A stretch of 5,980 nt of DNA from assembly GCA_001464165.1 (NCBI GenBank), contig LNEX01000493.1:1-5980 (forward strand), read 5' to 3'. The position numbers and the translations under genes were made by a program. This document shows positions 2,194-5,980 of this stretch, piece after piece; the first letter of the stretch is position 1; every line of letters begins with the position of its first letter. The notes beneath the pieces were generated by a model. The model was not told where the DNA came from. It ran no database searches and worked only from the letters and a program-made list of their open reading frames with translations. The DNA is from a bacterium Ga0077546. GTDB taxonomy: Bacteria > Cyanobacteriota > Vampirovibrionia > Obscuribacterales > Obscuribacteraceae.

Positions 2194-3174
2194 ATGACTT
2201 TGGTGCAATTGCAGTCAGAAGGCAAACGCCAGCCAGTAAGCTACGCGAAATGGGCGCAAATATGCGTGCATTCATTTACCCTTGCAATTGCTGCGACTCT
2301 GTCCCTAAGCATAAGTCCAAGTTGGGCTTGGACCCTGACACCAATGAAAATCGAAAAGGAGCTTAAACCTGGCTCAACGATTACAGATGTTCTAGTGGTC
2401 GACAATTCAGGTGCCCTAGACTCTAAACGCTACGAAGTAAAAATAGTTGATTGGTCACTCGATGAAAAAGGTGATTTGAAATACTTCGAACCGGGGATTG
2501 TACCTGGTTCAATTAGTAAAAATTTGATTTGCTCGCCTCTTCAGTTCAAAGCTGCTCCGGGCGAACGCAAGTTGATCCGCTATACACTCACAGTGCCAGC
2601 CGATGCTACGCCTGGTGAACACACCCTCGGCGTGCAAGTACTAGAAGTAGTAATCCCGCCCAAAGATCCGACCACCGGCAAAATCAACGTTGGCGTGGCC
2701 GTAAAATGCGGATTCTTAGGTGCTCTTACAGTGACATGCCCAAAAGGCGAAGCGAAAGCAATAGAACCGCTCGGTCTTGCTTTTGAAGAAACAGCCATAA
2801 AACCAGCCGTCAAAGAGAATAAAAGCGAAATTGCTAGTACAGCAGCTGGCAAAGATGCCGCAAAGGCCGCTGTCGAGCCAAATAAAGAAGAGACAAAAGC
2901 AACCAGCAAAGCTCAAAGTGTCGTCTTAACGGTAGAAAATACCGCTAACATCAGGGCCCGTCCGAACTGGGCTTTTACTATCAACGATGCAACTGGACAA
3001 AAGATATACGAGCAAAAGCCTGAAGAATTCATTGTCTTGAGAGAATCAAAGAGAATGGTTATCTCACCTATAAAAACTCCGCTCAAGCCGGGCAAATACA
3101 AGGTTATCGGCAAACTTGATCAAGGTTTACCTCACCCGGTGCATGAGCTGGAAAAGGAAATCGAAGTGAGATAA
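2194..3174 (+). CDS. Secreted PapD-like (fimbrial-type) periplasmic chaperone with low-complexity insert
   Basis: A 326-residue exported protein. The N-terminal region has a charged stretch, a hydrophobic core (about 24-41) and a likely signal peptidase I site after SWA (residue 45). The mature start WTLTPMKIEKELKPG and the later APGERKLIRYTLTVP (about 121-135) match the strand pattern of the first immunoglobulin-like domain of PapD/FimC-type chaperones, which cap and deliver subunits to an outer-membrane usher. A second beta domain follows: about 173-200 and then about 242-326, ending with a PGKYKV strand. Between them lies a roughly 45-residue Ala/Lys/Glu-rich segment (about 198-242) not seen in classical chaperones, which are about 230 residues when mature. 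I cannot place the conserved Arg of the classical subunit-anchoring cleft. Cysteines occur at 113, 172 and 182 of the precursor. The usher-like gene directly downstream supports the assignment. A distant Ig-like secreted protein of another kind is the alternative. Confidence 0.72.
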   Translation: MTLVQLQSEGKRQPVSYAKWAQICVHSFTLAIAATLSLSISPSWAWTLTPMKIEKELKPGSTITDVLVVDNSGALDSKRYEVKIVDWSLDEKGDLKYFEPGIVPGSISKNLICSPLQFKAAPGERKLIRYTLTVPADATPGEHTLGVQVLEVVIPPKDPTTGKINVGVAVKCGFLGALTVTCPKGEAKAIEPLGLAFEETAIKPAVKENKSEIASTAAGKDAAKAAVEPNKEETKATSKAQSVVLTVENTANIRARPNWAFTINDATGQKIYEQKPEEFIVLRESKRMVISPIKTPLKPGKYKVIGKLDQGLPHPVHELEKEIEVR

Positions 3175-3198
3175 TTTTCTTTTGCGGCGCTGAATTTT

Positions 3199-3303
3199 TT
3201 GAAAGTTTTTTTCTTAACGCTTCTATTAGTATTTATTTTTACTTGCTCTGATGCCAGAGGGCAAGACAAAACGACTCGCGTGTTTGTAGATGACTTCCGT
3301 TAG
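3199..3303 (+). pseudogene. Orphaned signal-peptide exon-like fragment of the usher-like gene (frame-shifted 5' end)
   Basis: From a TTG at 3199 a 34-residue peptide reads (M)KVFFLTLLLVFIFTC, then SDARGQDKTTRVFVDDFR, and stops at TAG 3301-3303. It is a textbook signal peptide: one Lys, a long hydrophobic core, and a plausible AxG cleavage site (ARG, residues 19-21). The residues after it, RVFVDDF, look like the first strand of the usher-like N-terminal domain. The downstream gene is in the next frame and has been open since 3294 (its last upstream stop is TGA 3291-3293). The two frames therefore overlap only at 3294-3300. Joining them at 3297 would give FVDDF-PLEPVCQGLGNQ and an 833-residue precursor. 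The start is uncertain because no Shine-Dalgarno precedes the TTG; the fragment is in the same frame as the chaperone stop at 3172-3174. Confidence 0.6.
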
Positions 3304-3322
3304 AGCCAGTCTGTCAAGGCTT

Positions 3323-3326
3323 AGGA
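3323..3326 (+). promoter_or_regulatory. Possible internal ribosome binding site before GTG 3333
   Basis: AGGA lies 6 bases before the GTG at 3333, so that codon could start translation. The product would lack any signal peptide, which is at odds with an outer-membrane barrel. The bases may simply encode the Gly-Leu-Gly-Asn stretch of the original longer protein. Confidence 0.25.
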
Positions 3327-3332
3327 AATCAG

Positions 3333-5699
3333 GTGTCAATTGACCCAATCAAAAACGAAATCAAAATTACCAGAATACAGGATGGTTCTATAGTAATTTA
3401 CAATACCGCTAGTGGTGACACAACAATCAACAGCCTGCCAGCCAATAGCGCCAAATCACTAATACCAGTTATGTGCGCACCAGGTCAGGTATACCTCCCT
3501 CTCGACATCCTGGCCTACTTGCTGGGAGTAGCAGTGGCACCTGGGGAGGAGCGAATAGATTTCAACAAACAAACACTAGATAGCGCGGAAGTTGTAAAAC
3601 CTGTAATCAGCTGGAAAGACAGGGGTGTTGACTTTCTTGATTATGGACTGGCAGAAGATACAGTTAAACTCAACCCGAGCCTCTCTGGTGGCGCCACCCG
3701 CTATGGAGTCGTACAGAGTATCTTAGCTGGGGGTGGCGGGCACATCGGACCATTGACTATTCGCACCAATAACAAGGTGCAAGGCGGTTCCGGTCGCAAT
3801 TTCCTCACTTTCAATTCGGCCCACTTTCAAATCAGACACAACGCTGCCAAATGGCGTTTCGACGGTGGTGACGCACCCCTCAGTGGTTTTTTTAGCAGAC
3901 AAATTAACGGCTATCCTGCCCGCGGTGGACTGTTTGTCAAAGAAGGTAAAAAATATCAGTTTGCAGCCTTCCAGGGTGCGGCCTTCACCAAAGGTATCCC
4001 AGTCGGCGGCGGCACAGTCAGACTATCCTATCAGCGCTACTTATCAGCCAACGACTTTACCTATAAACCAAACGACAAAGTCGCGCTAAATTTAGGTACT
4101 ATTTTCTTCACTGACCAAAGCAAATTTGTCCAGAACACAAGGCAATATGGCTGCTACGCTACTTTCAACAGTGCATATAAGACCGACCGCACAACTCTCA
4201 ACGCAGAATACTGGATAGGAAACGGCCGACGCTCACCCGAGCACCAAGGATATGCCTATTTAGTCGATGCCTGGGGACAATTCAAAGTCAACAAGCGCCT
4301 CAGTCTTTATGGTGAAATCGATCGCATCAACCCCAATTTCGCCCATCCCCAAATTGGCAACGCTTTTGTCAATCGCCAAGATCTAGTGGTGGGCGTGAAT
4401 ATGCAACCAATCAAAGCAATTCGCATCAACCTCAATGGTTCATTCAACCAGAGTGGCCTCGACTTACCCAAACCATCCTCCACCAGAATCGTCAACGGCT
4501 CACTATCCTGGTCACCCTTTAAGAAAGGACCGAATTTCAATTTTCTTGGCAGTCAAATATTCTTCAGGCCTTCCATTGGTGGCAGTGGAACTTCAAGCAG
4601 TGCGGCTCCCGCCAATACTTCACTGGCGGCCATGACCATTGATCACAACATAATGGGAGCACAAGTAATCACCGGTGTAACCACAACTGTAGGCAGCAGC
4701 CAGGGTTCGCCGGAGAATGTCAGCAACTCGGTAAATTTTTCAGCCAGTCGCTCAATCCCTCGACTTGGACAGCTGCAGTTTATGTCGCAAATTGGTCACT
4801 TTATTTCGCGTGGCACAAATAAGTCGTTCGATATTCGAGCAATCTATACCACCTTGCCAATCTTCAATCGCCTCACCTTAGCCTTTGGACCCGGTTATAG
4901 CAAAGCTGCCGACCACGATCGCTGGACATTTATTGCTGGACTCGGCACAAATATTCCTTACATTGGCGACTATCAAATGAACGTCAATCGCCAACTAGCC
5001 CTAACAACGTCGCAAGGCAGACTGAGTAAGATATTTCGCCTAAACGGCGGTCGCGGCGGTACCGAAATGGGCCTGATTGATACAGGTAAGCCACCTCCCT
5101 TTGGTGCAGTTACAGGCTATGTGCTGGAGAGTGCTGTCTTTCCAGTCAAAGATCCAGCGCATAAACCAAAGCTTGAAGGCCTGACAATTATGCTTGACGA
5201 CCAACCAGGTATTGCTCGCACCACTGGAAGGGACGGCAAATGGTCATTTGACACTATTCCCGTGGGCCGGCATAAAGTTTCAGTGATGCTTAGCAGCGCC
5301 CCAGCAACTCTGGCCATCACTAGCCCAGCAAACTACTATGTAATTGTTGCACCAGGACAAGTAAGCACCCTCAATTTTGCTTTAGCAAAGATGGCTACAA
5401 TAAGCGGCAAAATTACCCTGGCTGAGGATGCAAAAGAATACAAAGACTCGCTCACCAGCGTTCGCGTTCTTCTAGCAGGCAAAGACTTTGATACACTATC
5501 TGCCAGTCATGGCTCTTTCTCCATCACTGATGTTCCCCCGGGGACCTACACGGTGGAGGTCGATCCAGCCTTCTTACATGAAGCCCTCATAGTAGAACCC
5601 AAGTCAAGGGAAGTGACACTGGGATCCGGCGTAAATTTGGCCATGGAAGACTTTAAATTCAAACTCAAACCTCGTGATGTTCAACGTAAAAAATTCTGA
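3333..5699 (+). CDS. Usher-like outer-membrane beta-barrel protein with two C-terminal carboxypeptidase-regulatory-like domains
   Basis: A 788-residue protein as read from GTG 3333, or about 833 if joined to the signal peptide at 3199. Residues 1-100 form a small domain with a VYLPLDILAYLLG motif, like the N-terminal domain of ushers and related envelope proteins. Residues about 120-570 are rich in alternating Tyr/Phe/Gly/Asn strands (for example RLSYQRYL, SLYGEIDRI, INLNGSFNQSG), as expected for a transmembrane beta-barrel. After a Pro/Gly hinge (about 583-592) come two beta-sandwich domains, about 593-685 (GRDGKWSFDTIPVGRHKV) and 687-778 (SHGSFSITDVPPGTYTVEV). Each carries the G-x-F/W-S-F-x-x-[IV]-P-x-G-x-[YH]-x-V hallmark of carboxypeptidase-regulatory/prealbumin-like domains. 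It follows a PapD-like chaperone, and its stop overlaps the next ATG, so an export role for subunits is likely. No plug domain could be assigned. The missing signal peptide is the oddity. Another kind of barrel transporter is the alternative. Confidence 0.75.
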   Translation: MSIDPIKNEIKITRIQDGSIVIYNTASGDTTINSLPANSAKSLIPVMCAPGQVYLPLDILAYLLGVAVAPGEERIDFNKQTLDSAEVVKPVISWKDRGVDFLDYGLAEDTVKLNPSLSGGATRYGVVQSILAGGGGHIGPLTIRTNNKVQGGSGRNFLTFNSAHFQIRHNAAKWRFDGGDAPLSGFFSRQINGYPARGGLFVKEGKKYQFAAFQGAAFTKGIPVGGGTVRLSYQRYLSANDFTYKPNDKVALNLGTIFFTDQSKFVQNTRQYGCYATFNSAYKTDRTTLNAEYWIGNGRRSPEHQGYAYLVDAWGQFKVNKRLSLYGEIDRINPNFAHPQIGNAFVNRQDLVVGVNMQPIKAIRINLNGSFNQSGLDLPKPSSTRIVNGSLSWSPFKKGPNFNFLGSQIFFRPSIGGSGTSSSAAPANTSLAAMTIDHNIMGAQVITGVTTTVGSSQGSPENVSNSVNFSASRSIPRLGQLQFMSQIGHFISRGTNKSFDIRAIYTTLPIFNRLTLAFGPGYSKAADHDRWTFIAGLGTNIPYIGDYQMNVNRQLALTTSQGRLSKIFRLNGGRGGTEMGLIDTGKPPPFGAVTGYVLESAVFPVKDPAHKPKLEGLTIMLDDQPGIARTTGRDGKWSFDTIPVGRHKVSVMLSSAPATLAITSPANYYVIVAPGQVSTLNFALAKMATISGKITLAEDAKEYKDSLTSVRVLLAGKDFDTLSASHGSFSITDVPPGTYTVEVDPAFLHEALIVEPKSREVTLGSGVNLAMEDFKFKLKPRDVQRKKF

Positions 5700-5980
5700 T
5701 GCTTAAAACGTGCTTGATTTCGCTCCTATTTCTCCTGGCACAACCAGTTGCGGCCGCACCGTCCTTAAATTTGCGCAGCGATTTAGACAATACTTCTACC
5801 CTGCAAACCCTGGCAATCGACCAATCCAACATCACCTTCGACACCCATCTAGGAGCGAAAGGAACCGCCATTGTGATCTGGCGGGCCACAGTTCAGGAGA
5901 ACCCTTCGGGAGCTAGCTTCACCATCAAGCGCTCGGTCATTGGCGGCACAGCTAAAGAGCCTATTCAAGCCGGAGTGCGG
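5699..5980 (+). CDS. 5' part of a secreted protein, candidate exported subunit
   Basis: The ATG at 5699-5701 overlaps the TGA (5697-5699) of the usher-like gene by one base (TGATG), the usual sign of translational coupling, and the frame stays open for 94 codons to the window end. The first 20 residues, MLKTCLISLLFLLAQPVAAA, form a classical signal peptide with cleavage near VAA/A. The visible mature part (about 74 residues) has no cysteine and alternates polar and hydrophobic residues (SNITFDTHLG, GTAIVIWRATV, SFTIKRSV), which suggests beta structure. I do not recognise a family. Its place after a chaperone and usher-like gene makes a pilin-like subunit, adhesin or accessory surface protein reasonable, but this rests on context alone. 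No separate Shine-Dalgarno is evident, which fits coupling. Confidence 0.8.
   Translation, partial: MLKTCLISLLFLLAQPVAAAPSLNLRSDLDNTSTLQTLAIDQSNITFDTHLGAKGTAIVIWRATVQENPSGASFTIKRSVIGGTAKEPIQAGVR

Follow-up and report, generated by a model that had tools for sequence, protein, structure and literature searches.

Organization of the locus

The window (the whole stretch of 5,980 nucleotides that was analysed, from an uncultured bacterium) carries a chaperone-like gene, an usher-like gene in two pieces and the beginning of a subunit-like gene. Coordinates are those of the window, and P0001 and P0009 are homologous proteins from the database searches described below.

2194-3174, plus strand: chaperone-like gene, 326 aa, intact; gap-free alignment with P0009, a protein of the same length, at 298/326 identity
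3199-3303, plus strand: 5' part of the usher-like gene, starting with TTG and covering the signal-peptide-like stretch and the beginning of the N-terminal domain; closed by TAG 3301-3303 in the shifted frame; 32/32 identical to P0001 residues 1-32
3294-3297, plus strand: junction; the match to P0001 breaks off with D32 at 3294 and resumes with P51 at 3297, two bases standing against 18 codons
3297-5699, plus strand: main fragment of the usher-like gene; open reading frame from GTG 3333 (788 aa) with the rest of the N-terminal domain, a predicted beta barrel and CarboxypepD_reg-like C-terminal domains; 784/800 identical to P0001 residues 51-850
5699-5980, plus strand: first 94 codons of a secreted subunit-like gene that runs off the window; its ATG overlaps the usher stop codon by one base

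Upstream of this cluster, positions 997-2100 encode a histidine kinase in fusion with a response-regulator receiver (Response_reg, HisKA and HATPase_c by Pfam). On the minus strand, a 239-codon open frame at 110-829 has no Pfam match (E up to 1).

The TTG of the usher-like gene, at 3199, comes shortly after the end of the chaperone-like gene at 3174. The frame that begins at this TTG reads LKVFFLTLLLVFIFTCSDARGQDKTTRVFVDDFR, 34 codons, with TAG 3301-3303 as its stop, and its product starts in the manner of a signal peptide, as judged by eye. The usher-like frame is preceded by TGA 3291-3293 and is open from 3294 to its stop codon at 5697-5699; its first ATG, GTG or TTG is the GTG at 3333, which gives a product of 788 aa. 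These are the two frames between which the original prediction had placed the split, and that part of it stands.

Comparison with homologues

The 788-residue product was searched against about 5.8 billion proteins (E up to 0.001), which gave at least eight homologues, P0001-P0008. The search scored the 7992 candidates sharing most words, and further homologues may exist. P0001, 850 aa long, is the closest relative among the matches listed; it is the representative of 32 member sequences and the one of them that was read, as a protein.

Aligned to the window by tblastn, residues 1-32 of P0001 match 3199-3294 (32/32 identical, E 6.6e-15) and residues 50-850 match 3294-5696 (784/801 identical, E 0), the identity being 784/800 when counted from residue 51. 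Two further matches are at chance level (E 0.78 and 0.98). Both pieces thus fall in order on one protein, an association far beyond chance, and the suggestion that a single gene comprises both the signal-peptide start and the long usher-like frame is borne out by the relatives, in which the two are continuous.

The 18 residues (54 bases) that lead from D32 to P51 in P0001 are represented by two bases in the window, a net difference of 52 bases. Divided by three, 52 leaves a remainder of one, which accounts for the shift of frame. An N-terminal alignment was made of 12 distinct homologues, namely P0001-P0008 and the genes of loci L002, L005, L008 and L009; the gene of L001 corresponds to P0005 and was left out as a duplicate. 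In each of the 12 the gap-free alignment shows exactly 18 residues here. All carry a signal-peptide-like stretch before the domain (by eye), and in all a single reading frame leads from the N-terminal part into the usher part.

Downstream of the junction, 800 codons align with P0001 with neither a stop nor an insertion or deletion, and the differences are mostly conservative. The usher-like part had been described as undamaged, and it is. Codon usage favours the signal-peptide frame over 3199-3294 (best of three) and places the usher frame second of three over 3294-3335; the scoring did not discriminate.

The missing stretch falls inside the PF07833-like N-terminal domain of P0001 (Pfam match at residues 30-131, 28.4 bits, cutoff 24.2). 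Four of the eight homologues were scanned for this domain: P0001 and P0002 score above the cutoff, P0006 (23.8 bits) and P0008 (17.7 bits) below it. The main fragment in the window has no PF07833 match (Pfam, E up to 1). In the model of P0001 the lost residues form three strands (33-35, 41-44 and 47-51), with a local pLDDT of about 73-76.

The chaperone/usher/subunit-like cluster

The window gene is part of a putative chaperone/usher/subunit-like gene cluster that is also found in Obscuribacterales. The usher-like gene is present in 4 of the 53 genomes of the order, and the chaperone-like gene occurs in the same four. The order chaperone-like, usher-like, subunit-like is common to the window, L001 and L002, the chaperone-like gene being the immediate upstream neighbour of the usher-like gene in both L001 and L002. 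The product of 5699-5980 can be aligned with those of the subunit-like genes found downstream of the usher-like gene in L001, L002 and L005. L005 has the usher-like and subunit-like genes, with no chaperone-like gene within its 5.6 kb.

Downstream of its usher-like gene, L001 has four subunit-like genes of 181-212 aa (8551-11198). L002 (3584-4884 and 8531-9624) has two after the usher-like gene and two upstream on the other strand. The four of L001 have no Pfam match (E up to 1); of two scanned from L002 at the same limit, one has Pfam matches, at E 0.1 and 0.2 only. No usher or fimbrial chaperone domain was found in the cluster by Pfam.

The usher-like and chaperone-like genes lie on one strand in the window, L001 and L002. 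Genome G024 (L006, 1-3308) has a distant usher-like gene and a chaperone-like gene on opposite strands, facing each other, and the coordinates on contig 567 of genome G021 suggest the same arrangement.

The chaperone-like protein has, at residues ~201-235, a stretch some 35 residues long that is rich in K, A and E and is gapped in L001, L002 and L006, present in P0009-P0011 and present in a different version in P0012. The protein also has weak matches to the Oerskovia WxL peptidoglycan-domain proteins P0030 and P0033 (E 3.1e-5 and 3.3e-4, ~30% coverage).

Searches beyond these relatives were negative. Genome contigs searched with a single window protein gave 24 pattern matches and viral contigs searched with the alignment gave 32, no relative being among either; plasmids searched with the whole window gave nothing.

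Origin of the split

The usher-like gene at 3199-5699 has, with a probability of roughly 0.93, suffered a loss of 52 bases immediately behind codon 32, by an ordinary break or an assembly fault and not by adoption of a new mode of reading. The parent would have been a chaperone-usher-like outer-membrane gene of the Obscuribacterales kind. The length of the loss is not divisible by three, and a reading begun at TTG 3199 would therefore end after 34 codons; translation could restart at GTG 3333. The restart product would have no signal peptide and would be missing the start of its N-terminal domain, and would be expected to stay in the cytoplasm and do no work in the outer membrane. From the sequence we infer both the membrane role and the non-functionality of this product. 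The lesion appears to be single and recent, because the remaining 800 codons have no stop, insertion or deletion and the upstream chaperone-like gene is gap-free. A recent event or an error had been among the original suggestions, and this part of them holds.

Within this explanation, a recent strain-level deletion that inactivated the gene in the organism itself is rated slightly better than an even bet, by judgement and not by measurement. If a P0001-like parent underwent a simple deletion, both remaining bases must derive from the right-hand side, and the junction then shows no microhomology. Slippage between short repeats usually leaves some, and its absence here is a point against the explanation. 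A repeat search of 3150-3450, which covers the retained DNA, found direct repeats of three families and a single inverted pair, none of them at the junction. A loss driven by repeats in the retained DNA was rejected.

Alternatively, the 52 bases may have been lost in sequencing or assembly, the gene being whole in the organism; this is given a little less than an even chance. The record may be metagenomic, the aligned homologues are all whole and the residual 800 codons resemble a working gene. Assembly errors are a recognised source of apparent pseudogenes, many of which stem from them according to PMC11017572. Against a fault of this type, the retained DNA offers neither a repeat nor a fitting microhomology at the junction, and the two neighbours that were looked at are in good order: the alignment of the chaperone-like gene has no gaps, and the domains of the kinase gene are matched almost over their full length. 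Moreover, single-base errors would be more usual than a 52-base loss such as this one.

Much less probable than either origin of the 52-base loss is that the GTG-started protein of 788 residues functions as a short form, in a different role or by a different export route. Its frame is long and undamaged, and its differences from P0001 are mostly conservative. Two promoter-like matches occur at 3340-3394 where 0.5 are expected, yet both lie downstream of the GTG. None of the 12 aligned homologues starts at the GTG and all 12 have the signal-peptide-like stretch; furthermore, no route is known by which a barrel protein without a signal peptide reaches the outer membrane. The alignment with homologues that had been proposed as a check also found no separate 34-residue gene in any of the 12, and a gene of that kind was rejected, the first 32 residues being the start of P0001. 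In these 12 homologues, then, neither of the observations named beforehand as refuting the split-gene view was made.

Production of the full protein by programmed -1 frameshifting or by bypassing is very improbable. In its favour, the frames do overlap and the downstream frame is undamaged. A run of seven T residues at 3206-3212 even provides, in frame, the heptamer T-TTT-TTC at 3207-3213. This lies within the signal-peptide codons, about 80 bases upstream of the overlap, and is taken as a chance occurrence because the -1 frame is closed by TGA 3291-3293: a slip there would meet this stop and could not reach the usher frame. In the overlap itself, read directly over 3285-3303, no base is repeated four or more times in a row and no slippery heptamer is visible, exactly as had been stated beforehand. 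The overlapping frames are not conserved, all 12 aligned homologues being single-frame and the seven match rows (five genes) from the genomes of the order having no internal stops. The product of recoding would, in addition, have a gutted N-terminal domain, 17 residues short. Nothing was found in support of a recoding mechanism, which the original prediction had left open. Both frameshifting and bypassing were rejected, since the overlap has no slippery site and two frames occur in none of the aligned relatives.

The loss of one base, through error or mutation, was the cause put forward originally, and it fares as badly. Adding one base does join the frames arithmetically. The joined precursor of 833 residues would be 17 residues shorter than P0001, in a stretch that is complete in 12/12 homologues, and the joined reading DFPLEP occurs in none of them. 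With 18 residues in the relatives against two bases in the window, a one-base indel was rejected.

Implications

A false lead is removed, in that the split gene provides no evidence of translational recoding. The split itself is ordinary. The gene cluster is little described and is mildly to moderately interesting: as a by-product of the analysis, the Obscuribacterales are seen to have a chaperone/usher/subunit-like cluster in which Pfam recognises no usher or fimbrial chaperone domain. The open-licence literature, which leaves most subscription journals outside, yielded no paper on fimbriae or ushers in Obscuribacter, on chaperone-usher systems in Melainabacteria, or on a copper amine oxidase N-terminal domain with an usher.

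A bolder reading, for which the odds are poor, is that the Obscuribacterales have an undescribed chaperone-usher-like branch, in which a PF07833-type N-terminal domain takes the place of the classical one in cargo recognition by the usher, and that in the strain of the window a real deletion of recent date has inactivated the usher. If this were true, the surface fibre would be dispensable or under selection to vary.

Comparison with known systems

The usher-like gene is predicted to share with FimD and PapC, the outer-membrane ushers of chaperone-usher pili, the succession of a signal-peptide-like start, an N-terminal domain, a middle part of many strands and C-terminal beta domains. Like theirs, it sits between chaperone-like and subunit-like genes, an adjacency expected of ushers, both neighbouring roles being themselves putative here. 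The usher-like proteins differ in their N-terminal domain, which matches PF07833 (above the cutoff in two of the four scanned), and in having no Pfam usher match: no usher or PapC-type model was found in P0001, P0002, P0006 or P0008 (four of the eight homologues, hmmscan, E up to 0.1), nor in the window fragment (hmmscan, E up to 1). Because the Pfam usher models do not match, the gene is named usher-like and is not filed as an usher.

The model of P0001 is of low confidence (mean pLDDT 59). When it is used for a Foldseek search, the first eight rows are FimD and PapC ushers, with TM-scores of 0.17-0.28 and large rmsd. Porins and receptors are matched as well, which is taken to reflect the barrel shape that they would share with the modelled protein. 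A search of solved structures by sequence gave five weak matches, all to the C-terminal part.

The chaperone-like protein of L001 has a weak NCBIfam match to the fimbrial chaperone TcfA (NF011836) over residues 103-202, at E 2.6e-4 and 20.6 bits, far below the cutoff of 500; the window copy has no such match. TcfA presumably belongs among the alternate-type chaperone-usher systems.

The break is a frameshifting loss of a well-known kind. It resembles pseudogenes made by frameshifting deletion, and equally the spurious pseudogenes of assembly treated in PMC11017572, in that the gene is whole in the relatives seen, carries one disabling change and is otherwise intact. It differs in being a loss of 52 bases, not an indel of one.
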